DNA of 64,000 bases from Pratylenchus scribneri (Eukaryota; Nematoda; Chromadorea; Rhabditida; Pratylenchidae). The stretch spans positions 1,426,001 through 1,490,000 of the forward strand of contig JAQSEB010000045.1 of assembly GCA_030063045.1 (NCBI GenBank), in the 5' to 3' direction. The notes below the pieces were generated by a model. That model made no database searches and was not told the DNA's origin. It saw nothing but the letters and a program-made list of their open reading frames with translations. Below are positions 4,205-25,370 of this stretch, piece after piece (positions within the stretch are counted from its first letter, which is position 1; every line of letters starts with the position of its first letter). Made by a program: the position numbers and the translations under genes.

Positions 4205-5273
4205 TAAATTGACCAAATTATCGGGGGAAGACGGCACTGCATCCGCTGATAAATTCCCATAATTTTGCTTTTCGCACAGCCACATTGATTCACAAATGCA
4301 TTGTCGTAAAATAAGCAGCCAATTTTGATCTTTATCATTACGGTATTGTTCCACTCTGTTGTTTCCCTATTATTCAATTTTATTAGGTGTTTAAGAATTT
4401 TAGAATATATTTTGGTCAAAATAAAATTTTTTTTATAACATTTTTCAATTCATTCTCAGCTAAAGTGATTATATAAAAATCTATACTACGATTATGTTAA
4501 ATTTTTTATCAACATATATAATTTTAATTATCAATAATAATAAAAATAATAATAATCAATCATTATAAAATTAAATATAAAAAATTGCATATGTTTATTT
4601 TTATCAAACCTCACAGCCTTTTAACTTGATATCCTTCTTTTGCCATTTATCATGTAATTTCATTTTCGAAAAAATATTACAAATATCCCTCCCATTTGCA
4701 CTTTCAATGGAGTAAAGCAAATGCAATGTTCGTTTATTCACGTTACCATTTTCATTTACCATTTTTTCCATTCTCATATCTATCAATCCAAACCCAAGGG
4801 CATCCTATAATTTTTAATTGATATATATCTATTTTATTGGCCAAAGCCACTAACATTTTCTATAAGATGTCCTAATGCGGAAGGCAGTATTGGAAGATGA
4901 TTAAATGAAAGTGACTCATCATTATTTATGATTTCACGTTTATTATCATCTCGATTGATGAATTGTATGATTGCGGGTTCAGATTTGAACAATAAGAGTG
5001 AATTCATTGCAATCGATGAACCCCCAAGCATTGGACTATTTCTCGGCATTGATATATTTTTTGTCGATAGAGAATAGCTGAAAAAACGCTTTAAAACGAT
5101 TTAAATTTAAGAAAATGCCTTTTATCAGAGTATGACGTTTTCAGTGTTGTGTGAACAGAAAAAATGCCATCCAATTTTTGGACACAAATTCCAATGCCTA
5201 TACCATGCATTTGATGACCAATTGATTCACAGGCACGAGTTACTATATTTTGCTCGCCTGGCTTATTTTTTAC
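4205..5273 (-). CDS. Leftward exons of an unidentified host gene beside the Polinton
   Basis: Open, protein-like leftward stretches are separated by short AT-rich introns. They lie at about 5268-5150 (ACESIGHQMHGIGIG), 5049-4834 (MPRNSPMLGGSS...), 4800-4604 (DALGFGLIDMRMEKM...) and 4400-4205 (CLFYDNAFVNQCGC...). The last is Cys-rich, so an extracellular product is likely. I do not recognise the family, and the splice phases were not all solved. The first of these exons starts only a few bases from the Polinton end at 5281, so the transposon may sit in the intron just upstream. They could alternatively be 5' exons of the astacin gene. Confidence 0.35.
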
Positions 5274-5274
5274 C

Positions 5275-5280
5275 TATATA
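5275..5280. repeat. Target-site duplication TATATA, left copy
   Basis: TATATA immediately precedes the first base of the left terminal inverted repeat and is matched by TATATA at 25045-25050. Six-base duplications are the Polinton norm. The sequence is self-complementary and low in complexity, so on its own it is weak. It is convincing because both TIRs end exactly beside it. Confidence 0.85.
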
Positions 5281-5748
5281 AGTAGTATATAGTACAATTT
5301 TTCCACAGTTTGATCTTTGATCCCTTAGCTCGATCCTATCGAGCTAAGATTGATCATTGATCACTTAGCCCAATCCTATCGAGCTACTTTAGAAGATTGA
5401 TCTCTTAATTACGTCAATTAATTAATTGACACATTGTGTCTTTTCATTGAAGAGACACAATTAACTTTTTAATCTTTAATTTTTTAAGAAATTAATTAAT
5501 TTTAAATTAATTACTAATTATCTTTAGACAATTTTGAGTTACCATTGGCAATTCAAAAATTCCTCGACCCGACCGGGAATTGAACCCGAGCCGAGCCGAC
5601 CAAAATAAATCCATAGCCTTCACCTTTCGGCTATTCGGCCGTTGGATGAGGGAACATTCAATTTTGCTCATATACCATCCACTACCTCCAACCAATTCCC
5701 CTTTTTCCCTCATGAGTGAAAAGGAGGACCATTGGTCTTTGACATAAG
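5281..5748 (+). repeat. Left terminal inverted repeat (468 bp)
   Basis: Starts AGTAGTATATAGTAC and ends at GACATAAG. It matches the reverse complement of 24577-25044 without gaps, with about seven mismatches by eye. The outer 120 bp hold short palindromes (GATCGAGCTAAG-type and its complement). The inner part holds a tRNA-like segment in reverse orientation. Confidence 0.95.
5564..5644 (-). other. tRNA-derived (Pol III promoter-like) segment inside left TIR
   Basis: On the minus strand there is a B box-like GGTTCAATTCC within a T-arm-like hairpin (TCGGG, loop TTCAATT, CCCGG). About 55 bases before it is an A box-like GGCCGAATAG. No matching 5' acceptor strand is present, so this is not a functional tRNA gene but a tRNA-derived sequence as in SINE heads. 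The identical copy in the right TIR lies on the plus strand. Confidence 0.55.
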
Positions 5749-6250: not shown

Positions 6251-6256
6251 GATGGT

Positions 6257-6265
6257 CTATTTAAG
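6257..6265 (+). promoter_or_regulatory. TATA-like box before the packaging ATPase
   Basis: CTATTTAAG lies 40 bases before the ATG at 6297. It resembles the CTATATAAR boxes before four other gene sets in the element and supports choosing the downstream start. Confidence 0.5.
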
Positions 6266-6296
6266 CAATCAATTGTGGTCAATTACACTCATAAAA

Positions 6297-6914
6297 ATGT
6301 TCTTTTCACCCTTCACCCTAATTTTAGCCGGAGCCACCGGTTCTGGAAAAACACAATGGTTACTGAAGCTTCTAAAGCATCGAGAACAATTGATCGATAC
6401 ACCACCCCAGAAAGTACTCTATTGCTATGGCGAATTGAATGACGCAATTATGCGATTGAAAACCGAAGAGGGAATGGAAACACATAATGGCGTTCCTGAT
6501 GAGGAAATGATAAAATCCATGCCAAAACCTTTGCTCCTCATTTTGGATGATCTAATGCTGGACACAAAAAATGATTTCCTTGACCTCCTATTCACACGTG
6601 GTTCCCATAATTGGAACACCAGCGTTGTGTTTGTGACTCAATCCATATTTGGAAGGAATATTCGTACGGCACGGAGCAATTCCCACGTGCTTGTTTTGAT
6701 GCGTAGCCCTTCCTCACAATTGCAATCAAAAACAATTGGTTCACAATTATTTCCCGGGAGATTGAATTATTTTTTGGAGGCTTGGACAGATGCCACTCAT
6801 GAACCCTTTTCATATTTGGTAATCAATATGCACCCAAATGCACCTGAATATTTGCGTTTGTCAACGGACATTTTTCCTGGGGAAAAGCAAAAAATTTATC
6901 TTCCCATTGATTGA
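6297..6914 (+). CDS. Polinton genome-packaging ATPase (FtsK/HerA, A32-like)
   Basis: This is the P-loop ATPase that would pump element DNA into capsids. From the start at 6297 the product is 205 residues. Walker A GATGSGKT is at residues 12-19, Walker B LLLILDDL at about 79-86, and a FVTQS motif at about 112-116 fits the sensor/glutamine strand of this family. An in-frame ATG at 6252 would add 15 residues. I prefer 6297 because it lies 40 bases after a TATA-like box, the same spacing as the next unit, and because Polinton ATPases have Walker A near the N-terminus. The gene is first in the rightward set and is followed by a separate promoter-like box. Confidence 0.93.
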   Translation: MFFSPFTLILAGATGSGKTQWLLKLLKHREQLIDTPPQKVLYCYGELNDAIMRLKTEEGMETHNGVPDEEMIKSMPKPLLLILDDLMLDTKNDFLDLLFTRGSHNWNTSVVFVTQSIFGRNIRTARSNSHVLVLMRSPSSQLQSKTIGSQLFPGRLNYFLEAWTDATHEPFSYLVINMHPNAPEYLRLSTDIFPGEKQKIYLPID

Positions 6915-6932
6915 ATTGGATTGATCAGGGGT

Positions 6933-6940
6933 CTATATAA
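6933..6940 (+). promoter_or_regulatory. CTATATAA box, second transcription unit
   Basis: CTATATAA directly abuts an ATG at 6941 and lies 41 bases before the in-frame ATG at 6974, which makes 6974 the more credible start of the following gene. Confidence 0.6.
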
Positions 6941-6973
6941 ATGCAAAAAAATCAATACAAAATCCAAAATAGA

Positions 6974-7333
6974 ATGACATATCAATTCAGTCCATATATA
7001 AAAGATAATTTAGAATTTTTGCAACAACTCTCAAAAACAAAATCTGATAAAAAGAAAAACTCACTTATATTGAACGCAAACGCTGATCAAATTTTGGCCA
7101 TCGTTGAAATTTGCGCAAACATTTTGCGCTATAATTTCATTTTGACTCCCCAACAGAAAAAACGCTTAATAAAATTTGCCGATTATTATCGGGCAATCGC
7201 TAGGGCACGTACCGAAAAGACTGCGCGAAGGCGTATTCAACAGGGTAGTGGCTTGGCATTGGGTGCAATTCTGTTGCCCATTGTCGCAACATTGGCTGAA
7301 CATTTTGTCAAAAAAATATTGCCACAACAATGA
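6974..7333 (+). CDS. Small basic Polinton protein with C-terminal hydrophobic helix
   Basis: 119 residues from the preferred start (130 from the ATG at 6941, which touches the TATA-like box). The middle is basic with LTPQQKKRLIKFADYYR, followed by an Arg-rich stretch and the tail GSGLALGAILLPIVATLAEH, a Gly/Ala-rich hydrophobic segment. This layout (an N-terminal block with Ile/Cys-rich ICAN-type helix, QQKKRL, a basic stretch, then a QQGSG hydrophobic tail) is what I recall of an unnamed family common in metazoan Polintons. Function is unknown; a membrane-active or DNA-binding virion part is a guess. Its TGA overlaps the next ATG (ATGA). Confidence 0.75.
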   Translation: MTYQFSPYIKDNLEFLQQLSKTKSDKKKNSLILNANADQILAIVEICANILRYNFILTPQQKKRLIKFADYYRAIARARTEKTARRRIQQGSGLALGAILLPIVATLAEHFVKKILPQQ

Positions 7334-8211
7334 GACACACCCGAAAAATGGTCATAATTCCAGAGGCAGAATACCGGACCCTTTTGAATTTGATGACTCG
7401 TACATCGGGGGATGATTTACAAAATGAGAAGACCAAATTGGATGCAAAAATAGCCAACACTCTGGATAATGCTAAGCTGGATCCTGACATTAAGCAGAAG
7501 CGTTATAACGTCCTCTACAAGCAAAGGAGACAAATGAAAGATTTGATAGAGAACAGGCCACAAAAAGTGGTGATACAAAATCCTGAAACTGTACCACCGA
7601 ATGTGGCTCCATATTTGGGTCTAAGCAAACTTCCAAATGTAATTGATCCAAAAAGCGCAGATGATGATAGGAAAAAGGTTATCAGTAGATCATCCACATT
7701 AGCATCAACATCGGGAACAGAAAGATCTTCCATGTACACATCATCGGCACCTGAGGATGAAGGAGCCTCTTCTCAATATGAAACAGTGGAATCATCCATG
7801 GAGCAATATCAAATGCCGTCTGCGACAAGAAAAAAGCTGATTGAATTGGTTCAGTCAAATCCCAAAAGATTTGCCATTGCCCCGAATGGTGAAATCCTTA
7901 GCTATAGGAAACTAAATATCAAGGATAGCAACTTTAAAGCTTCAATAGACTATATTGCTGGCTTACGCGACTCTCCACCCAGAGGGCATAAATTTTTCGA
8001 GCAAAAACTCCGGAAAGATCCAGAGGCACAAAAAATTATCATGGGAAATTTTGCCGGACAATCCGGTCAAGGTAAAAAGCATCATAAAAAGGTAAGATTT
8101 GCTGCCACCACCAAAGTCGGGATTATAAAAACACCAGGTCTTCAGAGAATTGCCGCATCTCAAAAACAAAACAAGAAAAAATTTAGACCACAATTATGGG
8201 CAAAACTCTGA
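7330..8211 (+). CDS. Polinton conserved protein, possible virion component
   Basis: 293 residues. A predicted helical N-terminal third (EAEYRTLLNLM..., a coiled-coil-like charged stretch) leads into a Ser/Thr-rich disordered middle at about 115-160. A conserved-looking C-terminal block follows, with the pattern NGEILSYRKLNIKDSNF... and PRGHKFFEQKL, ending in a Lys/Arg-rich tail. A similar block (NGE...I.GSN..D...PPG...F) is widespread in unnamed Polinton proteins, as far as I recall. It starts in the ATGA overlap with the previous stop and overlaps the integrase start by 16 bases, so these three genes are probably expressed from one RNA or from very close starts. Confidence 0.7.
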   Translation: MRHTRKMVIIPEAEYRTLLNLMTRTSGDDLQNEKTKLDAKIANTLDNAKLDPDIKQKRYNVLYKQRRQMKDLIENRPQKVVIQNPETVPPNVAPYLGLSKLPNVIDPKSADDDRKKVISRSSTLASTSGTERSSMYTSSAPEDEGASSQYETVESSMEQYQMPSATRKKLIELVQSNPKRFAIAPNGEILSYRKLNIKDSNFKASIDYIAGLRDSPPRGHKFFEQKLRKDPEAQKIIMGNFAGQSGQGKKHHKKVRFAATTKVGIIKTPGLQRIAASQKQNKKKFRPQLWAKL

Positions 8212-9278
8212 TTAACAATTTGCTGACCACACTTTTTTACAAGTTAAAATCCCCGGCTAGTTATAGTGGAATACAAGCCCTTTATACGGAAGCAAAGAAA
8301 CACAATCCGGCAGTTACAATGAAAGATGTTGAAACATTTTTACACAATGAGCGCACATGGACTTTATACAAACCTGCCAGAAAGCGCTATAAGCGACTAA
8401 AAACCATTCCCTCGGGACTGAACACGGATTGGCAATGTGATTTATGCATTTTCGATGACCTCAAAGATCAAAATGACCAATACCGTTATTTGCTGGTTTG
8501 TATTGACGTCTTGAGCCGAAAAATTCATGTGGCACCCGCAATGACGAAGCGGAGTGAGGATATGATTGATGCATTCAATAGGATATTTGCAAAATCCAAA
8601 GTCATACCACATAAGCTTTATTCCGATTCGGGGGTGGAATTTCAGTCCAAAAAAATGTTGGAATATTTCCAGCAAAAGCAAATTTTAAAGAGGGTAATGT
8701 ACAGTCCTCATTTGCATGCTGGAGTGGTGGAACGGGCCAACAAGACAATAAAGCTTCGGCTGTACAAATATTTTAGCCAAAATAACATTACGCGATGGGT
8801 GGAAGCAGTTCAAAAAATTGTGGATGGCATAAACAATAGTGTGAATCGCACAATTGGAATGACTCCAAACCAGGTCACATATGAAAATGCTCAAGAACTT
8901 TGGCAGAGGCTATATAAATCAGAAGAAGAAGAGGAAAAAAAGTTTCAAAAACGAAAAAACAAATTTGCGCGTGGAGATATTGTACGTATCGCTAAAGAGA
9001 AGGGCACATTTGGACGATCATTTCATCCAAACTATACGGACGAACTGTTTCGAATCACAAAAGTGAATCCCACCAATCCCCTATCCTATAGAATTGAGGA
9101 TTTGGAGGGTAACAAAATTTCAGGCATTTTTTACGCACCCGATTTGGTCAAAACCACATTGGACACAACACATCGTATTGCCGAAGTGTTGAGGACACGA
9201 AAACGCAAAGGAGTAGAAGAGCATTTTGTACGCTGGGTGGGATATTCCGATAAATATAACAGTTGGATCAAAGACTGA
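8196..9278 (+). CDS. Polinton integrase (RVE/DDE) with C-terminal chromodomain
   Basis: A retroviral-like integrase of 360 residues that would join the element ends to target DNA. An N-terminal helical region is followed by the catalytic core with D82 (WQCDLCIFDD), D144 (YSDSGVEF) and E179 (VVERANKTIK), all three acids intact. A small SH3-like/linker region with FARGDIVRI lies at about 256-320. A chromodomain-like end at about 326-360 has the aromatic pattern HFVRWVGYSDKYNSW. A chromodomain at the end is known in Polinton and gypsy integrases and is thought to steer insertion through histone marks. No frameshift was seen. It overlaps the preceding gene by 16 bases and is 36 bases from the next. 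Confidence 0.96.
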   Translation: MGKTLINNLLTTLFYKLKSPASYSGIQALYTEAKKHNPAVTMKDVETFLHNERTWTLYKPARKRYKRLKTIPSGLNTDWQCDLCIFDDLKDQNDQYRYLLVCIDVLSRKIHVAPAMTKRSEDMIDAFNRIFAKSKVIPHKLYSDSGVEFQSKKMLEYFQQKQILKRVMYSPHLHAGVVERANKTIKLRLYKYFSQNNITRWVEAVQKIVDGINNSVNRTIGMTPNQVTYENAQELWQRLYKSEEEEEKKFQKRKNKFARGDIVRIAKEKGTFGRSFHPNYTDELFRITKVNPTNPLSYRIEDLEGNKISGIFYAPDLVKTTLDTTHRIAEVLRTRKRKGVEEHFVRWVGYSDKYNSWIKD

Positions 9279-9314
9279 TTTGGTTACCACTCCAATAGCT
9301 GAATAATTGCCCAA

Positions 9315-11123
9315 ATGGATTCATTTTACATTACCCTACCCAGCAATGATCCCTCTTATGAGAATAATAAGACGAGTCATTTCACCGTTAGGCTACCTGA
9401 AACACTGGAGTTGGACAATGCATGGACCGTATCGCTTTCCTCAATCATTTATCCAATCTCATTTGCTACACTCGGTGCTGAGGATGAGCAATATATCATT
9501 GTCAGTTATTTGGACCCGGAGGATAAGCAACAATCGGAAAAAATTATGATACCCTCTCTGAATTTCCATACAATCAAAGAGATGGAACAGAACATAAATG
9601 CCCTTATTCATCAGTATTTTACGCGCCGCTCCGCAGAGAAGGGCACAACCTCTTTGGGCTATACAGAAACCACCACCACCAACAATAATAATCCAACTAG
9701 AATGAGAAGATCTGCGGCAGAAACCCAACAGCAACAACAACTCACTCAAATTCAAGAAAACCCCGAAATTGTGGCAAAGGTGGCCGCAATAAAGCAAGCC
9801 AATCAACAACAAATTCCACAACAGCAGCAAACTTTGACTCCAATCCAGGAAACGGCTGATATACAGGCCAGAGTGGAACGGGAAAAAGTTGAAAAACTTA
9901 AAATGGCAAAAGGTGCAGCAGAAAGAGCTTTGCGAGACACTGGGAAAAACTATCAAAAAATGCTGGAATTCATCACAAAAGCAACAAACGCGCTTGACAA
10001 AATCAATTTGCAATTAGCCGAGAAGCGAATGGGAGAAAACACTGCTGCACAATTGAATGAAAAAATTAAAAAAATCCGTGAGGAATTGGCCAAGCTACAA
10101 TCCCTAGGCCTGACACTCTATGCCCATCGTGACGCTACACAAAAGGCAAAAGATGAAACTTTGCGAGAGGTTGAAGCAAAAGATTTACCAGCTGCAAGAC
10201 GTGGGGCAGACAAAGCAAAAAAGATTCTGGCAGACTCGAATGAAACCCTCCAAAATGGAACAGCAACATTTGAGCAATTGAAAAATTTGAGTGGAGAGGT
10301 CCAAACCATACTCCAATCAATGCCCAAGAGACAAGAATCACCTATTGCGATTGGTCAGCAACCAACTGGTGGTGGTGGTGGTGATAGAAAATTGGAACCA
10401 ATTGACGAGAAGCAATCCATAAAGGATCAAGTCACTGAATTGCAGCAACAACGTAAAAAGCAGCAACAGCAACAGCAAAAACAATTGGTACAAATTGAAG
10501 AAGACGAACGAATCCAGCAGCAATTGGCAAAATTACAGCAGCAGCAGCAACGGGAATTACTCAAATTTTCCGAAGATCAACAATCACAACCCGAACCACC
10601 TATAGCATTGGCCCAATTCAAAAAGCCAATAGAAGAGGACCGATTTGCGGATATACGCAAATTGTTTCATACTGACCCAAATGCAAAGGTCATTTTCCGA
10701 TTTGATGACATAATGCAAAAATTTATTGCATTTTTTGAGGACCGTATCCAACATGTGGAACTCTCACCCGAGCTAGCCTATGCGCTGGGATACAGTAATC
10801 AATTGTTTGTAATGAGTGGATTTTACGCTCAATTTATGCCCACCCTATCGGGTGGAATCAAACAATTGTATGTGTACAGTCCAATTGTGGAACAATCAAT
10901 CGTAGGCAATGAGAAGGCGCCACTTTTGCGGGTGGTTAACGTAATTGGCGAGCCGGGTCAAGTCCAAGAGGCTATATATAGCTCAGAATATCACTACCGA
11001 TTGCAGAATAAACGCATTTCTGAAATTACAATTGAAATTCGTTCAGCAACAGGAAAATTGGTAAAATTTGCGTGGGGAAATACCCTCGTCACATTGCATT
11101 TCAAAAGATCACTTTTCATGTGA
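9315..11123 (+). CDS. Penton-like minor capsid protein with large Gln-rich coiled-coil insert
   Basis: 602 residues in three parts. The N-terminus MDSFYITLPSNDPSYENN...HFTVRLPETLEL is the hallmark start of a conserved Polinton protein. Its C-terminal third (about 440-602) has APLLRVV, then EITIEIRSATGKLVKF and LHFKR, which also match that family, generally taken as the minor (penton) capsid or a vertex-associated protein; that role is inference. Between them, about 110-440, lies a long Gln-rich, heptad-like insert with polyGln runs and Lys/Glu-rich helices (KKIREELAKLQ...). I would expect a much shorter linker, so the insert makes this protein unusually long. It sits directly after the integrase and 12 bases before the next gene. 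Confidence 0.8.
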   Translation: MDSFYITLPSNDPSYENNKTSHFTVRLPETLELDNAWTVSLSSIIYPISFATLGAEDEQYIIVSYLDPEDKQQSEKIMIPSLNFHTIKEMEQNINALIHQYFTRRSAEKGTTSLGYTETTTTNNNNPTRMRRSAAETQQQQQLTQIQENPEIVAKVAAIKQANQQQIPQQQQTLTPIQETADIQARVEREKVEKLKMAKGAAERALRDTGKNYQKMLEFITKATNALDKINLQLAEKRMGENTAAQLNEKIKKIREELAKLQSLGLTLYAHRDATQKAKDETLREVEAKDLPAARRGADKAKKILADSNETLQNGTATFEQLKNLSGEVQTILQSMPKRQESPIAIGQQPTGGGGGDRKLEPIDEKQSIKDQVTELQQQRKKQQQQQQKQLVQIEEDERIQQQLAKLQQQQQRELLKFSEDQQSQPEPPIALAQFKKPIEEDRFADIRKLFHTDPNAKVIFRFDDIMQKFIAFFEDRIQHVELSPELAYALGYSNQLFVMSGFYAQFMPTLSGGIKQLYVYSPIVEQSIVGNEKAPLLRVVNVIGEPGQVQEAIYSSEYHYRLQNKRISEITIEIRSATGKLVKFAWGNTLVTLHFKRSLFM

Positions 11124-11135
11124 ACAACAATTAGA

Positions 11136-11579
11136 ATGACGCATGTTTTCATTGATCCAGACAATTTGAACTGGTTAGGAATGGTGGCGGCCCAAGAGGG
11201 TCGAGGTCCAGCATTGGCCTCCCAACAGCAGCGATATTTTCAGGGTATCCGGTATCAAAGGGGTACTGGGGTATTGGGTGCGATTGGTCGCTTCCTGATG
11301 CCAATTGCCAAAAATATTGTCTCCACTATTGGAGAGGAGGGTTTGGCTGCAGGCACAAAAGCGCTTAGCGACATTTCTCAGGGCAAAAATGTAAAGGAAG
11401 CGCTGATGGAACATTCCAAACAAGGATTGGCCAACATTGCCGGTAAATTCCAGCAATGTGGAAAAGGAGCAACAGTGAAAAAACAAAGAGGTCGCCCAAA
11501 AGGATCGACTACTTTAAAAAAGCTGGCAATGATAAGGCAAAATAGACGACGATTCGATCAATTGTCCCCATATTTTTGA
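11136..11579 (+). CDS. Small Gly-rich/basic Polinton protein (pVI-like candidate)
   Basis: 147 residues. After a short N-terminus comes FQGIRYQRGTGVLGAIGRFLMPIAKNI, an amphipathic, Gly-spaced stretch. Next is AAGTKALSDISQGKNVKEALMEHSK, and the tail is basic with an AT-hook-like RGRPKG. The YQRG-G-Gh-x-h-hR-hhP and D...G.NVKEA pattern recurs in a Polinton family located beside the major capsid gene. By position and amphipathic start it could act like adenovirus pVI (membrane lysis or capsid cement). That is inference. A CTATATAAG box follows before the major capsid gene. Confidence 0.72.
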   Translation: MTHVFIDPDNLNWLGMVAAQEGRGPALASQQQRYFQGIRYQRGTGVLGAIGRFLMPIAKNIVSTIGEEGLAAGTKALSDISQGKNVKEALMEHSKQGLANIAGKFQQCGKGATVKKQRGRPKGSTTLKKLAMIRQNRRRFDQLSPYF

Positions 11580-11596
11580 TCTGACAGCTCGCTTGT

Positions 11597-11605
11597 CTAT
11601 ATAAG
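11597..11605 (+). promoter_or_regulatory. CTATATAAG box before the major capsid gene
   Basis: Located 62 bases before the ATG at 11659, in the only sizeable gap of this gene cluster. It likely starts the capsid-protease transcription unit. Confidence 0.65.
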
Positions 11606-11658
11606 GACAAAAAATGAGTTTATTGTCTAACATTTTCATTTTTTTTTAAATTGCAAAA

Positions 11659-13035
11659 ATGACTACCCTCAAAAAAATTGATTCTGAAAGTAGCGAAGGT
11701 GTGGATGTTGGCCTGATAAATTTTTTCGAGCTTCCAGCCACAAATGTGGCAGTAAACAAAACCACAATTAGGCAACTCCTTCCAATTGCTGCCCTTTCCC
11801 AAGAGGGCCCGTACACTTTCCGACTGTTTGCCGATAACCAGTTTATTGATTTGGGTCGCACTTACCTTTATCTGGGTCTATCATTACAAAAAAAGTCTGC
11901 CGGTAATTGGGTTAGCATTTCGGATACGGTAGAAGATGATAAGCACGCCGGAGTGATCAATAATTTGGGCCATAGTTTTGTGAAATCGCTGAAGCTGAGC
12001 ATCAATGGAACGGAATGCTTCGATTCGGGTCCGCTCTATGCCTATAGGGCCTACATTCTACAAGAGTTGGGTCTCTCGCATGAGGTGCGCAATGGGCTGT
12101 ACGAAGCAAATTGCTATGCCCTAGACGACTCACCGCAAAACCATTTTAATGGCTCAGGATTCCGGAAACGGGCGAAACGATTCACAAATGGACAATTGTG
12201 CGAAACCATGGTCAAACTCAATTTTGATTTGGCCAAGCAGAATAAGTTGATGCTGAACAATGCGGACTTGATTTTCACAATCCATCGGAATTCTGATGAT
12301 TTTCTACTCCTCACACCTGAATATGTGATAAAGGGTGTAGGTCAAGCTGCAGATACCACACACCAAAATGCACAAGAATATCGGATAAAGGTGCATGATG
12401 TTCAGCTTTTTGTAGCTTGTGTGGATTTGACTCAATCGTTGCAAAATGCAATCGCAAAACAAATGGAAACCTCACCAGCCAAATTCCCAATGCGCCGAAT
12501 TGAGTGCCGTAATGTGTATTTGGATAAGGGCAGAATAGATTTGGCCCATAACATTTTTGTTAACATTCTACCCCGTCGTATAATCATTGCATTCACTGCG
12601 GCAGATGCTTTTTCCGGGAACAAGAAGAAGTCGCCTTTCGAATTTGTTCATGCAAATTTGCGCTCATTTAGTGTGGAGGCAAATGGAAATAGCTATCCCG
12701 CTACGCCATATGCCCTCGATTTTGACAACAATCGCTATTTGCGCACATTTATCGATATGTATGCCGGTTTAGGAATGGACGAAGGCGACCGGACAATGTC
12801 CATCAACTTACAACGATTTTTGAATGGTTGGTGCTTCTATGTGATCCCGATGCAAAGCACACTGGAAGACTATGGTCAAAATTTCGAGATCATTCGCAAC
12901 GGGACCACGTGCATAAAGCTACATTTTAAGGAGGCTATAAAGGATTCGATGGAAATGCTGGTAATTGGAGAGTTTGATTCCATTCTCTCAATCGATTCGG
13001 CACGTGTACTCAGCTCAGATAATAGTGTATTTTAA
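11659..13035 (+). CDS. Polinton major capsid protein (double jelly-roll)
   Basis: 458 residues. Landmark stretches of the Polinton major capsid family are present in order: a Leu/Pro-rich start around LINFFELP, IDLGRTYLYLGL at about 63-74, the SFVKSLKLSINGTE hairpin at about 106-119, GPLYAYRAYI at 124-133, a KRAKRF site near 170, IKVHDVQLFVACV at about 243-255, PMRRIEC at 277-283, and PRRIIIAF...AFSGNKKKSPF...HANL at about 305-333. Two tandem jelly-roll barrels forming pseudo-hexameric capsomers are expected from published structure predictions of the family. The reading frame is intact. A TATA-like box lies 62 bases upstream, and the protease follows after 3 bases. Confidence 0.93.
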   Translation: MTTLKKIDSESSEGVDVGLINFFELPATNVAVNKTTIRQLLPIAALSQEGPYTFRLFADNQFIDLGRTYLYLGLSLQKKSAGNWVSISDTVEDDKHAGVINNLGHSFVKSLKLSINGTECFDSGPLYAYRAYILQELGLSHEVRNGLYEANCYALDDSPQNHFNGSGFRKRAKRFTNGQLCETMVKLNFDLAKQNKLMLNNADLIFTIHRNSDDFLLLTPEYVIKGVGQAADTTHQNAQEYRIKVHDVQLFVACVDLTQSLQNAIAKQMETSPAKFPMRRIECRNVYLDKGRIDLAHNIFVNILPRRIIIAFTAADAFSGNKKKSPFEFVHANLRSFSVEANGNSYPATPYALDFDNNRYLRTFIDMYAGLGMDEGDRTMSINLQRFLNGWCFYVIPMQSTLEDYGQNFEIIRNGTTCIKLHFKEAIKDSMEMLVIGEFDSILSIDSARVLSSDNSVF

Positions 13036-13038
13036 GAG

Positions 13039-13515
13039 ATGATTATGGAGGGCATGAATGGAAAACAACTTGAGCGGATTTTACACTCAAATCATCACAC
13101 ACGCCAATATTTTTTGGGAGTTTTTGCTGCCGATAATTTACCGCACTCGAAAAAATATCCCCATTGTTTTGTGGCAAACACCGATCCGCACTATCGAAAA
13201 GGCCAACATTGGGTTTCCATTTGGGTTCAAAATCCTCATAGCGCCGAATATTTTTGCTCACTTGGTGAACCGCCTAATGCAAATTTCCAAAAATATTTGA
13301 GCACATTCCAATCGGTCAAAATCAATAATAGGCAAATTCAAGCAAATTTGGAAGACACATGTGGACATTACTGCATCTATTTTTTGGTTTGTCGTGCCCA
13401 GGGGCAATCATTCCCCCAAATTATGCAAACCTTTTGGCGAACGCGTGCAATGGCGGATATGTTGGTAAAATTTTTTGTTCGGCATTTGATTATTCCCACA
13501 ACACTTAGCATTTAG
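13039..13515 (+). CDS. Adenain-like cysteine protease (Ulp1/C5 fold), catalytic acid replaced
   Basis: 158 residues, expected to mature capsid proteins. His57 lies in GQHWVSIW, the oxyanion Gln101 lies seven residues before the nucleophile, and the nucleophile Cys108 lies in DTCGHYCIYFL. This spacing equals that of adenovirus protease (Gln115/Cys122). The third triad member is expected as Asp/Glu in a F(D/E)S-G strand, but here the strand reads EYFCSLGEPP with Cys73 in that position (codon TGC at 13258-13260). Either a nearby acid (Glu70 or Glu77) compensates or activity is changed. It starts 3 bases after the capsid stop, so it probably shares its mRNA. Confidence 0.9.
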   Translation: MIMEGMNGKQLERILHSNHHTRQYFLGVFAADNLPHSKKYPHCFVANTDPHYRKGQHWVSIWVQNPHSAEYFCSLGEPPNANFQKYLSTFQSVKINNRQIQANLEDTCGHYCIYFLVCRAQGQSFPQIMQTFWRTRAMADMLVKFFVRHLIIPTTLSI

Positions 13516-13520
13516 CCTGC

Positions 13521-13529
13521 CTATATAAG
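13521..13529 (+). promoter_or_regulatory. CTATATAAG box before the membrane glycoprotein
   Basis: Fifty bases before the ATG at 13571, immediately after the protease stop. Confidence 0.65.
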
Positions 13530-13570
13530 AAAATGCAAAAAAAAATCACAAAAATTTTATAAACTTAAAA

Positions 13571-14602
13571 ATGAAATTTTTTATTCCATTTTTATTTTTT
13601 GCCACCATTTTTCCTCAATTATTTCCATTCATAATTGGGCATAGAATCTATCGTCTATTTGAGGGCGAAACCATTATAGATCAAAACAATAGTTTTGATC
13701 ACCAATATTTGATCCATTCAAAATGCAATAGACCAATGATATTTCCATATAACAATAGAGCGGTATGCATATTGACGCAAAAAAGTGAAACTGAAGGACC
13801 CATCCAAATTCAATTGGAATCTGCATACACATTTCATACATCTGCGCCAAGAATAATGGAACTCACCCCATTGACGGATTCAATATTTCATGCCTGCTTT
13901 GAATATGATCATCATTCATTTTTAATTTACCAAAATGGTGGGAATAATGAGACGCATATCATTCGAAGTGGAAATGAAAAGGTGTTTAAATTTTTTGACA
14001 AATATGAACGGTTTATCTTTGATCATATACAATCGCGTTTATACATTCAAATTGATGATCAATGGTTGTATAGACTAAATCTCGATAAGCTTGTTTCGAA
14101 ATTTTGGTCGCCTTCCATACAATGGGGAAGCAAAAATGCTCGAATCCTCTTAGAACCAATTACTCAATTATCCTCTAATTGTTGCCAAGATTTAATGATT
14201 GCGAATGGTGTATTGTATTGGATTGAGGAAGATTCCATCTACCGACGGCATTTACATTTGAAACAGGAGAGGATATTTGTATCAAAAATTGGCGCAAAAA
14301 TATTTTCTTTCATCCCATTTCCTCATGCCAAAGATAAAGATATTCCAGTATTGCTTTCAACCACCAAAAATAATTTTCATAATTGCATTGCAATTTATTT
14401 AGCCATCATCAAAGCGTGCGTAATTGCGCTATTAGTGTGGCTATACGGTAAGCCAATGATGGAGAGCATTAGAAAAAGATTTAAAAAAACGCCCTCCTAT
14501 GATTCTGAGGACGGACAATTTGAGCTATCTGGTGGCATTTATCCTACTGCGCCATTATTCCTGCAGCAGAATGAGACAAATAATCCAATTAGAGCAAAGT
14601 GA
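13571..14602 (+). CDS. Type I membrane glycoprotein, envelope-like, with PTAP tail motif
   Basis: 343 residues. The hydrophobic start (about 1-22, Phe-rich after MKFF) is a signal peptide. An ectodomain of about 250 residues follows, with six cysteines and NxS/T sites at N39 and N126. A single transmembrane helix at about 272-292 (CIAIYLAIIKACVIALLVW) is followed by a basic stop and a roughly 50-residue cytosolic tail. The tail contains YPTAPLF with PTAP at 325-328, the late-domain motif that recruits TSG101/ESCRT-I in several enveloped viruses. Ectodomain segments such as LYIQIDDQWLYRLNL and VLYWIEEDSIYRRHL resemble strands of YWTD-type propellers, which is a weak impression. I saw no fusion-peptide or furin-like site. 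Its own promoter-like box suggests separate control. The envelope role is inference. Confidence 0.78.
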   Translation: MKFFIPFLFFATIFPQLFPFIIGHRIYRLFEGETIIDQNNSFDHQYLIHSKCNRPMIFPYNNRAVCILTQKSETEGPIQIQLESAYTFHTSAPRIMELTPLTDSIFHACFEYDHHSFLIYQNGGNNETHIIRSGNEKVFKFFDKYERFIFDHIQSRLYIQIDDQWLYRLNLDKLVSKFWSPSIQWGSKNARILLEPITQLSSNCCQDLMIANGVLYWIEEDSIYRRHLHLKQERIFVSKIGAKIFSFIPFPHAKDKDIPVLLSTTKNNFHNCIAIYLAIIKACVIALLVWLYGKPMMESIRKRFKKTPSYDSEDGQFELSGGIYPTAPLFLQQNETNNPIRAK

Positions 14603-14792
14603 AAATAGCATCAAAAATTTGAGGTCTTAGAGAAGCAGAGGGATGGACCAAACGTCATTTTAGGATAAAAAATCAAATAATAATTTTGGATTTAATGTCG
14701 TATTTAATTTATTAATGATGCCAAAATAAGAGTAATGTTAAATTTTGCTGGAATGAGAATTAGACAAAAAAAGATAAATTGTCTTTTCAAAT
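14603..14792. other. Intergenic spacer in the Polinton
   Basis: AT-rich, with no ORF or repeat seen. It ends at the next CTATATAAG box. Confidence 0.5.
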
Positions 14793-14801
14793 CTATATAA
14801 G
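14793..14801 (+). promoter_or_regulatory. CTATATAAG box before the last rightward gene pair
   Basis: Ninety-five bases before the ATG at 14888. Sequence is identical to the boxes at 11597 and 13521. Confidence 0.6.
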
Positions 14802-14887
14802 TAAATGATCATAAACCCATTTATTAATTAACTGAGTAAATAAATTAATTGGCGAAAAATATAAAAAAATATATTTTCTTAGAGCGG

Positions 14888-15271
14888 ATGCTAGGAACTG
14901 AATTTTTTCTCCAATATTATTCCCAAGAATTTTTTCGACACCTTTCCACAAATCCTGAAGCTCAAATTCCAATTCCCGCCCATCTCTGTGTGCATCCATC
15001 TCCCACCTATTTGCGGCATATAAAAGAGTGTGCAATCATCGATTTTGTTCGACCCTACGGTGATCAAATAAATTCACTCATCTGTATCTGCTTGCCCACT
15101 ATCATCGATCCGCCAATCTATTCGCTCTGTCCATTGGATCTTTTTGAAGAAATCCAATCCGCTTGGAACGAATACATTTATTTGCCTCTCGATCAAATTG
15201 AAATATGCCCATACAACGAGGAAGAGCTACAACAAATTTGTCAATTTCGAAGGACTCATCGCCTCCAATGA
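14888..15271 (+). CDS. Unknown Polinton protein, 127 aa
   Basis: The first ATG in frame is at 14888 (MLGTEFF). The frame is open further upstream but lacks an ATG. The product is Cys/Pro/Tyr-rich (VRPYGDQINSLICICLPTII, YSLCPLDLFEEI), without signal peptide or clear domain. Its stop overlaps the ATG at 15268 of the PAZ-like gene (ATGA). The two genes share one promoter-like box and lie together at the end of the rightward set, where Polintons carry accessory genes. A joint function in host interaction is possible but unsupported. Confidence 0.6.
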   Translation: MLGTEFFLQYYSQEFFRHLSTNPEAQIPIPAHLCVHPSPTYLRHIKECAIIDFVRPYGDQINSLICICLPTIIDPPIYSLCPLDLFEEIQSAWNEYIYLPLDQIEICPYNEEELQQICQFRRTHRLQ

Positions 15272-15877
15272 AGCAAAAATTAATTAAACTCTTATGCGAA
15301 TACAATAAAATCAATTGTGATGAATATTACCCACCAATATTGGAGGAAGCAATCCGCAAAAGTTATCGAAAACACAATGATTTTGTACGGAAATTGGAGT
15401 TGTGCACAAATCATCTATGCCCAGCATGGAGGAATATTCCCCTTCAAGCAGCATTCATTACCCACAAATCGGCACGCGCTCTGTTGGCATTCAAAGGGGA
15501 AATGCGCGTTTCAGTTTATCAATACTATTTTTTGCGTCATCGTCAACGTCTACTTTTCCCCCAACTCCCATGTGTGGCCGTAAAGGTTGGCAATGGCCAT
15601 GTGTCATTCTATCCATTGGAAGTGCTAGATGTAATCATCAATCCCACAAATGATCAAGAGGAAAAGGTAAAATAGCCATGGGAGTTTTTTGAATAATTTT
15701 TCCCCAACAATTTAGATGTCCATGACCACAGCTGAAGCGACAACTCAAACCGATGAGGACAATGGCAATTATGAATTTGAGGAAGAATGTGCATCAACTG
15801 CCTTTGAGGAAGAAGAAGAAGAATTTCGCCAAGAAGAAGGAAAGATCATAATCAAGATGGCCTCGATGACATTTTAA
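15268..15877 (+). CDS. PAZ-domain-like protein (Argonaute-related), possible RNAi interference factor
   Basis: Two exons, 15268-15666 and 15716-15877 (intron GTAAAA...TTTAG, 49 bp), 186 residues. Residues about 60-125 read like the second half of an Argonaute PAZ domain: a Ser-Ala-rich turn (THKSARALLAFKG), VSVYQYYF, then LLFPQLPCVAV and VSFYPLEVL. These correspond to the V.QYY....L.yP.LPC..V....yfPlEv signature. In PAZ this segment helps hold the 3' end of a small RNA. No PIWI or MID domain is present in the element. The second exon begins MSMTTAEATTQT and is strongly acidic. An in-frame ATG at 15205 would add 21 residues. A decoy or competitor for host small RNAs is my inference; the alternative is a chance resemblance. 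Confidence 0.7.
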
Positions 15878-16065
15878 ACACAAATAATGATAAATTCTCC
15901 AACACTATTGTTAACAATCATTTTTTAATTGGATAAACTTAGTTGGGTTTGTGCCCAATACAAAAAATCATCCATTATTTTTGAACTATAATTAACAACT
16001 ATTTATTCATAATATATGGACAGTTATAACAGTAAACTAAGAAAAAACAATTGAAAAAATTCATA

Positions 16066-19000
16066 TCATTCATATCCAAAGGGTAGAATAGTCAACTCTT
16101 CATTGATTAATCCTTTGTGCAATACGGGTAAATATCGTTTGGTCATTCGGCGAGTGACAATTCGGGAATTGGCTTTTGGCTGGATTCGATCATAATAAAA
16201 ATTGGCGGGTTCATTTCCTCCTTCTTTGCCAAAATTAAGAACCATGTCACGAAAATGGTCATATTGGAATTGTTGGCAATTATTTTTGTCCAAAGTAATG
16301 CCCTTAAACATTATTATAATACGAATTCAAATAAATAAAAACTCACCCGAATACGGAGAATGAATTTCTCCTCGCCATTCTTTCGGCTTTTCAATTTGAG
16401 GCCATATTGTTTGGCACCACCGCATGCATATTCCATGATATGCCAATCTTCATATTCCCTTTGCATTTCTCCCAACATTTGCCCACTTTTGATTGGTTCA
16501 CTACCTTTGGCATGCTGGACGATGATTGAATCGGTATCGGAAAATGCACAAGAAATATTGTTATTCTTAAAAATTTACCAGTATAGAGTAATTTCGCTCC
16601 TGGCATTTGCAATACTTGCTGCATGTATTTGAGGAGGACCAATCTTGCAGCACTTGTTGTCCATAAACTATATTTTTATTATTCATTTTATTGAGTTTTT
16701 AATAATTTTCTTGCAATAAAATTGTTAATAAAGGTTTATTTTATGGAAAGGATATATCAATATTAAAATGACAATAAAAAATACCTGATCACAATGTTGC
16801 TGGCCGGATTTTCAGTGATGAATTCCTTTTTCGTGGTCGATTGGACCCGAATGGCTTCCGATGAAACGCGCATTATTCGATTGATTTGCCGACGATGGTC
16901 ATAATAGAGAGTGAAAAATTCGCCGGGATCACGGATCACCTCACTTTTTCCAAGATTGTTGCGTTGCCCAAATTTGCCCTAAAGTTTAACTCCTTTTGTG
17001 GAAGACCCGATTTTTCACTTACCCATAATGAGTTGAGGCATATTTTACTTAAAAAATAATTGTCAAAAAATATTATTTTTTAGCTTACGCAATATAGCGG
17101 AGGCCGGGATTTTTTTTCACTTTTGATGGATCAATTTTGACACCAATCGCTGCATACATTGCCAAAAATTGAGCCTTTTGTTCTTCCGTTTTGCATTCAG
17201 GTGGCCATCCACTGGCCTGCACTTTGAGGGCCAAGAAATGCCGAACATAACCAGTGAACAACTCTTTTGACCATTTCTTATAATGCCTAAGTAAATTGTT
17301 GGAACTTTCATGACTGAAAATTTCACCAATCCACTTACCAAGCCCTTATGAATCGATCCACTCGATAGCCATTGGACAGTGCTTCCTCCAATTCAATATG
17401 GGTGACGGTTGGGACAAATGCGCGTTCCCGATCCGAATGGGGGCAATTGTGTGACTTTCGGGTATTGATCTTTTGAAATTGACGGGCGCATTTGTAGCAA
17501 CAACCAAAAATGAGTTGCTCATCAATTTTCATTGGCAAAACAGGCAGCTGCAATCCCCTAGGCGGAATGATCCTCACTTTGAGTAGCCCTTTGTAGGGAA
17601 TATGTTCAGGGCGTGTCCATTCCACGTGAGTTTCTGAAGGCACAACAATATCGGGCAATCCAATGGGATATTCGGTAGAGAAGTTGATATATGGATATAA
17701 GCTATAAAATTATAATGTATTTTTCCAAAAAATTCCATTTTTCTATAGTCATATCCGCTTAGTAAGAGGGAAAGTTTAGAAGGGAGAATGGCGAGGCAAG
17801 GAAGATGGGCAGCTAGTGGCTAGCCCTAAAGGAATAAGGGAATAGGGAGTGAATAGGGAGTAAGAGAAATCAGCAACTATGAGCATTGCAAACTGGAAGG
17901 AGAGAGAGTTTCACTAATTGGTATCCGTCCAATAGGATAGTGGGACGGACAAAAAGTAGAGATGGATTGGGGGAGATAGAGCGCAGGATAGGGGAAGCAA
18001 CAGGATAGGGGGAAGCAGCAGCAGGATAGGGGGAAACAACAGCAGGATAGGGGGAAGTAGCAGCAGGATAGTTGTAAGCAGTAGCAGGACTCTTAGCCAT
18101 GTCCGTTTGAATGGACAAATTTTTTACATAAATTGCACTCCCTTTTTACTTGTTTGTCATATCCGTTTAACCAACCTGATTATATCATAAACGGAAATTT
18201 CTGTAGCCTCATCTGCCTTGGCGAACAAAGCAAGAGGGCCAGTGCGGCCACCATGGAATGCATCTCTCTAAATAAATATAAGCATTTTTTTTCAATTTGA
18301 TTTGAAATTCCTACTGGATCAATTGGGCCCTTTTCACGGCCCAAATCGCTGAAAAAATCATGCATTCTTTTGGCCTCTTCAAATTCAGCTTGTGCATCTC
18401 CATCGGGATCAGTCACCGCCGCCACCGTCGATTGCATGGCATTTTTTTCGGCCTTTTTAAGCTCGGCCATTATTTGACATTCCCTATGCGCATTTTTAAC
18501 AAATGAAAAATTTTTTTTAAAAATTTGCTCACCAAATCTCCTCCACTTCAATTGTGCTGCCGTCCACATCTGGGCGTCTCAGAATGGCAAGCCTATTCAG
18601 GGTTTGTGCATTCAAATCCATTGCCCTCTTTTTGTCAACCAATTCATCAGTTGCAGCAAAACATTTTAGGCATCTTAAAAAACAAATATTCAAAAAAAAA
18701 AACAATTTGTAATTTACCCATGAAAATAACAGCCCAATACTTCCAAACATTTTTGCTGTTCCGGTATCCATCCATCCAACTTGAAGCCTTTGTAGCGCTT
18801 TTCCAATCCATTGCCCGCATGTTGAATATACACTCCATCTCGATGGGCGCGATATTCCAAATATTTGATTGCCAACACACTGGCTCGTTCATTCCTCTCA
18901 TAGCCACGCTCGGGGCAAATGGCAATTTGCTCCTTGCCCATGAACATTGAAGTGTAGATATTCATGCATAACTTGGCCAGAGTTGGGGAAAGAGGTAAAG

Positions 19001-21622
19001 GATCAGCTCCCTGCGTGACATTGGCAATGAAAATTTTTCGAAATGCCAAAATAGCCTTGAGCAAAATTTCCGTGTCATTGCGGGCATATTCTCGCAATTG
19101 ATCGGGCAAATAGAATGGCATGCTTTCGGCATTTGCATCGTACCAACGTTTGAATTCCCGGTATTTTTGCTCGCTCATTGAACCTATCAACATCATCAAA
19201 TTAATGAAATCATAAAATTTACCTGGGCAGTAGTCTTCCTCGGGAGGTAAATGAGTCAATTTTTTGGTATAATTCTCCGGACGATTGAACAAATGGGGAA
19301 AATGGTGTTTCGGTTGGACATCCAAAGCAAAAGTGGCTGGCAAATCGGCCAATGGCACGGACATTAGCAAATAACTGTCGCGAAATATCAATTTGCTGTG
19401 TTTCCGGCTCAATTTCATTGTGAATTCATAGATTTTGAGGCCAATCATGCTGGGCTCGGGTTTTCGCCCAGATGCTGCCAAATAATTGAACACAAAATGT
19501 GAGTCATAACGGGCGGCATTGTGTGCAAATATGATTGTATCAAATTTTTTGTCAAATGCCCGTAAAAGCCATTCGCTGAAATCTCTGATGCAGTCGGCGC
19601 CTTCTGCCTCACTCCAATCAAACATTTTTTGCGGGCCACATATGGGGCAATTGCCATCCGCTTCATTTTGTTGACCATCCTCGCAACGGGTACATGTTAT
19701 CCGAACACTGACATAGTTGACCACATGCAACCGAGTTCGTTTGTCCAATTGTTCATTCTGGCGGCACTCAAAGTCATAAACCTATACATGGGAATTTTAT
19801 TTGTCATACAAATCAATTTATAAAAATTACCAAAATTCGATAATCCCTCTTTTTTATTTTCAATTTTTGCACAAAACAACCCCGCTTGTCATGGTGAATT
19901 CGGCACCGGTGGCAATATTTGGTCCCGCATTCGTGGGGCTCACGCCAATCGAACAGGTAGACTCGGTGGCATTCCCCACATCTTCGCCATTTTTTGCAAA
20001 CATCTGCCTTATGGGCTTCATAGCATCTATTTTATCAAAAAAAAATCAATCCAAAAATTCCCCAAAAAACCTCTACTCACTCTTCATTGAAAAATTCACG
20101 ATGGCATTGGGGGCATTCAACGAAAAAGTCGCCTTGATCAGGGCAGGGATGCCCATAGCCCACACGGCAACAAAAATAGCATCTTGCCTTGCAATCCACC
20201 TTGTGATAAACGTCATGACTGTATGAGCTCTCGCATTCTGTGCACCATTGCCTTCCCATGCAAGGGAAGAAGCGGTTCACTTTTTTTATTGCCTCCCAAT
20301 GGTTGTCTTTCAAAAATATGTAAATGTTGTAAGGTCTAATGCGTCCATCACTCCAAATTGGGCGAACATTTATTTCGGGAGCATGCTCAAAGGCAAAAAT
20401 ACGGAATTTGTTGTCAAATTTCTCGTCCCAGTATTTTTGCACAGCTTCCAAATGATCAATTCCGTATGCTTTTTGATCTTTTGGGATGTTTGCCTCCTTC
20501 ATCATCACAAGAACTTCATTCAACACTCGTTGTTTGTTGTCCTTGAAACGTTCGAATTGGTTACTATTCATTAAATTGGCCGATTTCGATTGTCCCTTGT
20601 TTGCCAAATCTTTAAGTACTGCATCTTCACGATGACGTCTTGCCAAAATGAGGGCGTAGAAGAGACAAAATGAATCATTGTTGGACCATTTCACATGAAT
20701 TCTTTGTCCATCATTGTAGCCAAAATGCTCATTTGCATCGAATTTGGTGGCAGAGAATGCAATCTGTTCTCCCGTTTTGCCAGCACCCGTTGGAGGCGTG
20801 ACGCATGTGATGATCAGCTCTATTGGATAGGAGATTAGCAGTGACCGTTTATCCATGCCCTCCTCCCCATCACTTTGACCAAGCCGCTCTAATTCATTGA
20901 TCAAAACTTCGGCAGTATTTTGCTCAATTGGTCGAACTGGAAGAGTGATTGGCTGGTCCAAACCACGGCCAAATAGTAAAAGACTAAACTTTGTAACCTA
21001 AAATTTATAAAAATATTATAAAAAAGCGAATTAAAGAAAATACAAGATCTTCCTATGCACACCTACGTCTCACCCTTTATATTTTTGCATCCAATTTTTG
21101 CCCCTACGTCCTTCCTACGTCCCGTGAGTAAATATTCCACCCACCTTTCTTCCATTTAGCTTTTCCGTCTCACTAATGGCCAATGTGATTTGATCATCGA
21201 TGGCATCCAATAATTCATCCAACGGTTCCTCGATCATCGGGCTCATTGTGAATTTTGAAACAACATCGGTTAGGCCAAACTTTGGCAATCGGCTGGCCCG
21301 GACCGAATGTAGTGTAAAATGTTTGCCCGTGAATAATCTGTTGGAAGCAGTCTTAGAAGCGATAATTTAAATTTTACACTTACTCATTTGATGAATGATC
21401 AATAATTTGGTCATCAATATCACTTTCTTCCGTTTCGGATGGGACAGTCATTCGTCGTTTTTTGGAGGATGGACCTGACCCAAATTGTTGTTCATATTCT
21501 GCTTCATCATTTTGGTCGTCAGAATCGGAATATGGGACAAGAGGTGGATGATCAATTTGATTTGAGAAGGATTGATTTTGGGGGGAATTTGATTGGGAAT
21601 CTCCACTTTCGTAATTTTGCAT
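16066..21622 (-). CDS. Protein-primed family B DNA polymerase of the Polinton
   Basis: About 16 exons, leftward: 21622-21384, 21337-21145, 20997-20081, 20026-19831, 19781-19223, 19183-18718, 18673-18533, 18483-18315, 18267-18176, 17701-17339, 17286-17089, 17047-17023, 16978-16785, 16667-16579, 16537-16347, 16302-16066. The exon sum is a multiple of three (about 1422 residues). The order is an acidic disordered start, a CxxC-rich zinc region (about 20300-19870), ExoI (YDFEC, about 19775), ExoII (HNAARYDSHF), ExoIII (YARNDTEIL), motif A (D..SLYP, split by the 474-bp intron), motif B (NSLWGKFG, split), motif C (DTDS, about 16530) and a C-terminal basic block. The ATG at 21622 is chosen because the frame upstream lacks one. 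The acceptor at 16538 is CG, not AG. Confidence 0.92.
16538..16578 (-). other. Polymerase intron with non-canonical CG acceptor
   Basis: A 41-bp segment on the minus strand begins GTAAAT and ends TTTTCCG, where other introns of this gene end in TTTCAG, TTTAG or similar. Removing it keeps the frame into motif C; leaving it in shifts the frame. No AG at a usable position exists inside. It is either a splice-site mutation or a rare non-AG acceptor. Confidence 0.7.
17702..18175 (-). repeat. Long polymerase intron carrying subterminal-type repeats
   Basis: This 474-bp intron is ten times longer than its neighbours and splits motif A. Positions 17985-18080 repeat the AGGATAGGGGGAAGCAGCAGC unit of the left subterminal region in the same orientation. 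Short direct repeats GTCATATCCG lie near both ends (17749 and 18157). It looks like an insertion of element-end-derived sequence, now within an intron. Confidence 0.6.
20998..21144 (-). repeat. Polymerase intron with right-end-type repeat fragment
   Basis: This intron contains TTTTTGCATCCAATTTTTGCCC followed by CTACGTCC copies, the reverse complement of units found at 22790-23130 beside the right end. Confidence 0.55.
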
Positions 21623-21735
21623 TTTTTCTAAAATTTTATTCAACAGTGATTAAAATGTGGGCTACAATTAAATTAACAAATTATGCGCGATCGCAAATTA
21701 AATCAAATTTGAATAATCATTTATTCCTCAATTCC

Positions 21736-22059
21736 TCATTCTTTCATTTCTTCGTCGTTGACCGCTTCAATGTTGCTGCTCACTGATTGGCCAGTAGTCG
21801 ATTCATCCGTTTTGGTGAACGAGGACGATGATTGGCCCAAATAGCGCATTTTATAGCTCATTTCTTTATTGTTGAGACGGCATTTGGGACAGAAATGGAG
21901 CTCGATTTTGCAGCCACCATCCTCCCCCATATCCACAACCTTCGACAGCTTTCGGTCCTCGCGACACAACGCGAATGGTCCAACAAGGAAATGCATTTGG
22001 AGGAGGGTAAAGTCGGTTTTTGGGTTGTTCTTTTTGGGAACGGGAATTAAAGCACTCAT
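21736..22059 (-). CDS. Unknown Polinton protein, 107 aa
   Basis: Starts at MSALIPVPKKNNPK and is the first gene of the leftward set, upstream of the polymerase. It is a small, globular-looking protein with cysteines CREDRK, GGCKIE and HFCPKC, which could bind one zinc. It ends in a Ser/Thr/Glu-rich tail. I do not recognise it. By position it may be an early or regulatory protein, which is a guess. Confidence 0.6.
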   Translation of the reverse strand: MSALIPVPKKNNPKTDFTLLQMHFLVGPFALCREDRKLSKVVDMGEDGGCKIELHFCPKCRLNNKEMSYKMRYLGQSSSSFTKTDESTTGQSVSSNIEAVNDEEMKE

Positions 22060-24576: not shown

Positions 24577-25044
24577 CTTATGTCAAAAAGCAATGGTCCT
24601 CCTTTTCACTCATGAGGGAAAAAGGGGAATTGGTTGGAGGTAGTGGATGGTATATGAGCAAAATTGAATGTTCCCTCATCCAACGGCCGAATAGCCGAAA
24701 GGTGAAGGCTATGGATTTATTTTGGTCGGCTCGGCTCGGGTTCAATTCCCGGTCGGGTCGAGTAATTTTTGAATTGCCAATGGTAACTCAAAATTGTCTA
24801 AAGATAATTAGTAATTAATTTAAAATTAATTAATTTCTTAAAAAATTAAAGATTAAAAAGTTAATTATGTCTCTTCAATGAATAGACACAATGTGTCAAT
24901 TAATTAATTGACGTAATTAAGAGATCAATCTTCTAAAGTAGCTCGGTAGGATTTGGCTAAGTGATCAATGATCAATCTTAGCTCGATAGGATCGAGCTAA
25001 GGGATCAAAGATCAAACTGTGGAAAAATTGTACTATATACTACT
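24577..25044 (-). repeat. Right terminal inverted repeat (468 bp)
   Basis: Gap-free inverted copy of 5281-5748, ending GTACTATATACTACT. It is directly followed by the TATATA duplication. Confidence 0.95.
24680..24760 (+). other. tRNA-derived segment inside right TIR
   Basis: A box-like GGCCGAATAG at about 24685 and B box-like GGTTCAATTCC at 24739-24749 are spaced as in tRNA genes. The T-arm can fold (TCGGG/CCCGG). The 5' acceptor strand is absent. Confidence 0.55.
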
Positions 25045-25050
25045 TATATA
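25045..25050. repeat. Target-site duplication TATATA, right copy
   Basis: Immediately follows the last base of the right TIR and equals 5275-5280. Confidence 0.85.
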
Positions 25051-25370
25051 TATAAGGTATTGAAATTAAATTTTTAAATAAATATACATTTTTCGTTATG
25101 ATTCTGATAACTCTTGGTATAATTTAAGCATTATTTATTTTTAAATATTATTAGCCATTTCAATTTTTTTAAGTTTAAAATTTCAATTTTATTGTAAAAT
25201 TTCTATTTCAGCGCAAATTAATTATCTAAACCATTAAAAAATGACTTTATTGTTTTTATTATCGATCAAAATAATTGAATGATATAATAATATGCATAAT
25301 TTCTTTTTTATAAATGATCTAATATTTTATAATACTTATCGGCAAATAGAATTAAAAAATGATGAAATTC
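25051..25370. other. AT-rich host DNA right of the Polinton
   Basis: Nothing recognisable. If the host gene spans the insertion, this is intron. Confidence 0.4.

Follow-up and report, generated by a model that had tools for sequence, protein, structure and literature searches.

The Polinton and its PAZ gene

The stretch of DNA analysed here, hereafter the window, comprises 64,000 nucleotides of the nematode Pratylenchus scribneri (contig JAQSEB010000045.1, positions 1,426,001 to 1,490,000) and contains a Polinton, also called a Maverick, spanning positions 5270–25055, in which genes for PolB, integrase, packaging ATPase, protease and capsid lie between terminal inverted repeats (Table 1). Among the genes of this element is one that encodes a complete Argonaute-type PAZ domain without PIWI. 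In Polintons the target-site duplication measures 6 bp; none immediately flanks the called ends of the repeats, whose exact position is uncertain.

The PAZ gene is predicted to consist of two exons, and both the donor and the acceptor of its intron occur at the identical site in copies L001–L005, L007 and L009; matches to exon 2, with 58–98% identity, adjoin 14 of the 17 copies of the subfamily. An open reading frame (ORF) had been marked at this place in an initial annotation made from the sequence alone, and it is indeed there, with a first exon from the ATG at 15268 to 15666 and its end at the stop at 15877. The upstream ATG at 15205 is preferred as the start because an in-frame counterpart is kept in all of the 15 copies compared (L006 and L014 of the 17 were omitted), so that the protein is likely to have 207 amino acids.

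Table 1. Features of the Polinton and of its PAZ gene, in window positions.
Feature	Position	Strand	Remarks
Left terminal inverted repeat	5270..5748	+	479 nucleotides, 98% complementary to 24577–25055
Packaging ATPase (A32-like)	6252..6914	+	Pfam Pox_A32, E 5e-7, over cut-off
Integrase with chromodomain-like tail	8196..9278	+	Pfam rve, E 1.6e-9, over cut-off; Chromo, E 0.0012, below cut-off
Major capsid protein	11659..13035	+	Pfam DJR-like_dom, E 3e-4, below cut-off
Adenovirus-type cysteine protease	13039..13515	+	Pfam Peptidase_C5, E 0.0035, below cut-off
ORF A	14888..15271	+	Partner gene directly upstream of the PAZ ORF; family unassigned
PAZ gene, exon 1	15205..15666	+	Holds the complete PAZ domain; start 15205 probable, ATG 15268 alternative
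PAZ gene, predicted intron	15667..15715	+	49 nucleotides, GT...AG
PAZ gene, exon 2	15716..15877	+	Acidic tail; stop at 15877
DNA polymerase B, part	18714..19625	-	Pfam DNA_pol_B_2, E 6.8e-14, over cut-off
Right terminal inverted repeat	24577..25055	-	Partner of 5270–5748

Identity of the domain

The initial annotation had recognised the C-terminal half of a PAZ domain in a Polinton, unaccompanied by PIWI. Both the domain and the absence of PIWI are confirmed (none of the 16 distinct window ORFs scanned matches a PIWI family), but its extent was understated, the domain being of full length. In the structure comparison that had then been proposed, the predicted fold of the window protein agrees with the PAZ fold. 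The profile search proposed with it gave a divided answer: against Pfam PF02170 the window protein scores 24.6–26.2 bits, under the cut-off of 28.8, and copies of the same subfamily at C13 and C132 score 37.0 and 34.9 bits, over it.

For the 3′-end pocket we compared residues H271, R277, Y279, Y311, R315 and H316 of AGO2, which we take to form it, the R315/H316 pair presumably touching the 3′ end of the guide; the numbering was anchored by entry 11gj, the AGO2 mutant R315V/H316A. In the alignment, H91 of the window protein corresponds to H316, R90 to R315, Y86 to Y311 and H49 to H271. Judged from the aligned family, R90 and H91 are two conserved pocket residues, the former being Arg in 95 of 108 sequences and Lys in 9, and the latter His in 104 of 108. 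Outside the pocket, C102 (108/108), E118 (106/106) and P116 are invariant or nearly so.

Recurrence in Polintons

The whole genome assembly was searched (227 Mb, 276 contigs), and since only the best candidates were scored (150 of 266 for the window protein, 92 of 326 for the capsid) the counts are lower bounds. At least 154 matches to the window protein and at least 143 to the Pfam PAZ model were found, and the two sets were merged, omitting rows for exon 2 only and for second exons, into 200 PAZ loci, 120 of which have a match to the ATPase, the capsid or ORF A within 15 kb. Of at least 153 ATPase matches 150 were used, and 107 of these lie no more than 15 kb from a PAZ match, as against about 2.6% predicted for a uniform density; the capsid, with at least 107 matches at 91 loci, has a PAZ within the same distance at 49. 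When 20 PAZ loci of 10 kb were inspected, 16 contained two or more further Polinton genes, and of the other four three are retroelements and one is a contig end; the position and strand of the PAZ differ among the Polinton-type loci. PAZ is a recurrent accessory gene of many Polintons, not universal as far as seen, and the search for the same ORF in other Polintons that the initial annotation had suggested shows that it understated how general the gene is. The capsid loci where no PAZ was detected include most of the 54–55% capsid group and 23 of the 35 in the 39–41% band.

In two places PAZ matches stand in tandem with an ATPase match at each, at a spacing of 20.1 kb (C63:11883, 32028 and 52172) and of 38.4 kb (C138:42327, 80736 and 119145).

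Selection and origin

In the PAZ core the median ratio of nonsynonymous to synonymous substitution rates (dN/dS) is 0.20, taken over 45 non-independent pairs from the 10 copies left after six near-identical and one truncated copy had been omitted from 17, and this low ratio indicates that the core is under purifying selection. The Pfam PIWI model has at least 105 matches at about 60 places in the genome, and one lies within 10 kb of only 2 of the 107 Polinton-linked PAZ loci, as against 30 of the 93 PAZ loci unlinked to a Polinton ATPase. One of the two exceptions, C19, is stop-ridden and probably a host PAZ close to an element; the other, C139, is an element amid PIWI matches. At the latter (C139:561641–584779) PIWI matches flank the Polinton on both sides (ATPase at 582240, PAZ at 572379), and the element seems to sit within a host Argonaute gene.

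A tree of 35 PAZ sequences separates 9 host Argonaute PAZ from 26 element and database PAZ by a branch with support 98/88, and an earlier tree of 36 sequences gave the same split with 92/86. Host and element PAZ thus fall on separate sides, which is compatible with a single capture and does not prove it; a nematode-host Argonaute was probably the donor, in one ancient event. Judged by similarity scores, that donor would be a worm-specific Argonaute. Over the same stretch, six WAGO-like host exons score 45–54 bits with one profile against 42 for the single ALG-like exon, and 41–51 against 30 with a second; the best host match is WAGO-like for 127 of 145 sequences and ALG-like for 18. The likeness to nematode Argonautes seen in the initial annotation holds in part, one non-ALG host exon group having the best scores and another the worst.

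A second class of carrier

Three PAZ loci lie in very long open frames (L029, C223:247481; L030, C110:695480; L031, C46:1066770) and look like BEL/Pao-type retroelements. The pieces scanned at C46 match reverse transcriptase, Pao peptidase, integrase and a phlebovirus-type G2 envelope, and C110 has reverse transcriptase, DUF5641, integrase and the same type of envelope; at C223, where the envelope and PAZ pieces alone were scanned, a phlebovirus-G2-like envelope and PAZ were found. At all three loci envelope and PAZ share one open frame, the PAZ being the downstream one, and with 28.5, 31.6 and 31.6 bits two of the three exceed the Pfam cut-off. In the tree the retroelement PAZ joins the branch that holds the group of the window (97/98); the data do not reject its placing with host PAZ instead (p 0.21). 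At C21, C30, C46 and C234 there are further PAZ matches in long frames, which may belong to the same type of retroelement.

Relatives in databases and literature

Profile searches of 5.8 billion proteins returned 92 and 79 matches, many of them nameless; those with species names come from Meloidogyne, Globodera, Heterodera and Aphelenchoides (given as A. avenae). By this search the entries from the first three genera belong to the same family, and their UniRef label, ‘PAZ domain-containing protein’, is an automatic name that says nothing about Polintons. In one sequence of Aphelenchoides avenae (P0104) a standard and a degenerate PAZ-like stretch can be seen by eye in tandem. Among the matches listed from the full-text literature on Polintons and Mavericks, excerpts of PMC13419823, PMC6361761, PMC4901422 and PMC8363768 included, no description of a Polinton PAZ gene was found.

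Proposed function and alternatives

Holding the 3′ end of a small RNA is a known capability of PAZ. We propose, with a probability of about 0.55, that the window PAZ is a stand-alone silencing suppressor which traps the 3′ ends of small RNAs. The pocket of the element-made PAZ would bind the 3′ ends of small RNAs directed against the element, and these RNAs, largely of the worm-Argonaute pathway, would be kept from being loaded into Argonaute or stably held there, the free PAZ either sequestering them or loosening their grip; lacking PIWI, it cannot slice. RNA 3′-end binding, competition with Argonautes and benefit to the element are all inferred, and the anti-silencing role keeps the conjectural standing that the initial annotation had itself given it. 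According to an excerpt of PMC4323106, the 22G-RNAs of C. elegans associate with worm-specific Argonautes, and in an excerpt of PMC5934874, on two root-knot nematodes, orthologues of PRG-1 and ERGO-1 were not found, and there are more CSR-1-like genes. A counter-defence fits better than a replication gene because PAZ occurs in two element classes that replicate differently, looks non-essential in some lineages and is subject to purifying selection; its recurrence in related elements suggests a way to blunt the RNA silencing that holds them down.

Several results weigh against this proposal. Besides the sub-threshold profile score of the window protein, most relatives have a changed pocket: where AGO2 has Y311, His stands in 87 of 108 family sequences, and where it has H271, Tyr stands in 82 of 105. 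For R277 and Y279 the alignment offers no clear equivalent. The host comparison sets six exons, tentatively labelled WAGO-like, against one tentatively labelled ALG-like, and a third host group, non-ALG, scores lowest of all (13–21 bits). No Polinton marker lies within 15 kb of 80 of the 200 PAZ loci, and no PAZ was detected within that distance of 42 of the 91 capsid loci and 43 of the 150 ATPase loci; the family profiles, run on 8 kb beside one of these capsid genes and on 3 kb from a further element, likewise matched nothing. Viral contigs were scanned five times, each time with a few peptide patterns, and no relative turned up.

The protein could instead act, with no need for RNA, as a decoy that resembles a section of a worm Argonaute and occupies a protein partner needed in loading or in amplification by RNA-dependent RNA polymerase. 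Conservation of the pocket is only partial, whereas C102, P116 and E118, which lie outside it, hardly vary, and the acidic exon 2 could serve as an interaction tail; the Arg-His pair of the pocket is nevertheless among the best-kept residues, and we consider a decoy unlikely. A role in replication or packaging, in which PAZ would bind the 3′ ends of the single-stranded DNA of the element or its terminal repeats and aid the polymerase or integrase, is likewise unlikely. PAZ folds are able to bind single-stranded nucleic acid ends, and the gene is element-encoded, recurrent and under purifying selection; yet many capsid loci show no PAZ nearby, its position and strand vary between lineages, and BEL/Pao retroelements, which replicate quite differently, also carry it. 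With some 150 loci for the ATPase and 91 for the capsid in this one genome, competition is plausible, and PAZ might load or shield small RNAs so as to exclude rival elements or temper its own element in the host, but plain suppression accounts for the data in fewer steps and this proposal is improbable. A chance likeness, or a defunct piece of an Argonaute that the element carries with it, would suit the single-sequence score below the Pfam cut-off, but is highly improbable, given that the tests for a neutral dN/dS and for a background profile score both came out the opposite way.

Comparison with known systems and significance

Among the closest known systems is the PAZ of animal Argonautes (PF02170; human AGO1/AGO2 PAZ, 1si2, 8thq and 6ra4), from which the window protein differs in standing alone without PIWI, in its acidic second exon and in having no clear equivalents of R277 and Y279; most relatives also carry His and Tyr in place of Y311 and H271. 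With the PAZ of the host WAGO-like Argonautes (a tentative label) it has the T-x-H and YFPMEVL-like motifs in common, but it lies on a separate side of the tree, and PIWI is seldom near Polinton-linked PAZ. The proposed mode of action, keeping small RNAs from Argonaute, would resemble that of p122/p126, B2 and p19, viral suppressors of RNA silencing with small RNAs as their target. As described in an excerpt of PMC4974542, p122/p126 interfere with the methylation of small-RNA 3′ ends and B2 binds the PAZ of Dicer; unlike the window protein, which is a PAZ itself, these suppressors are not described there as PAZ homologues.

The PAZ finding bears on how Polintons and retroelements survive under the small-RNA silencing of nematodes. 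A broader claim, tentative and slightly short of even odds, is that virus-like elements of plant-parasitic nematodes captured the guide-3′-end grip of a worm Argonaute as a free small-RNA trap, a new class of suppressor common to Polintons and enveloped BEL/Pao elements and carried by about 100 element copies in one genome. If true, two unrelated classes of element would have, in a free PAZ, a counter-defence made of the defence’s own parts, and Argonaute domains would be seen to move from the host into mobile elements. For annotation, caution is needed, as ‘PAZ domain-containing’ genes of nematodes can be element genes and not Argonautes.

Neighbouring genes

With the start at 15205, the opening 67 nucleotides of the PAZ gene overlap ORF A in a different frame. 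The window copy of ORF A has no Pfam match; in the genome it has at least 55 matches, 31 of the 55 lying no more than 15 kb from a PAZ match. The ORF at 13571–14602 (343 amino acids) matches neither Pfam nor NCBIfam; by eye, its product is hydrophobic at the N-terminus and again over a stretch toward the C-terminus, and is possibly a membrane or envelope protein. In copy L006 (C195:200560) an ORF of this type reads on in frame through to the PAZ ORF, whose start is absent, and ORF A is apparently absent too. In copy L010 (C132:869103–870904), exon 2 lies about 1.2 kb farther downstream than elsewhere, as if the PAZ gene had been split by an insertion.
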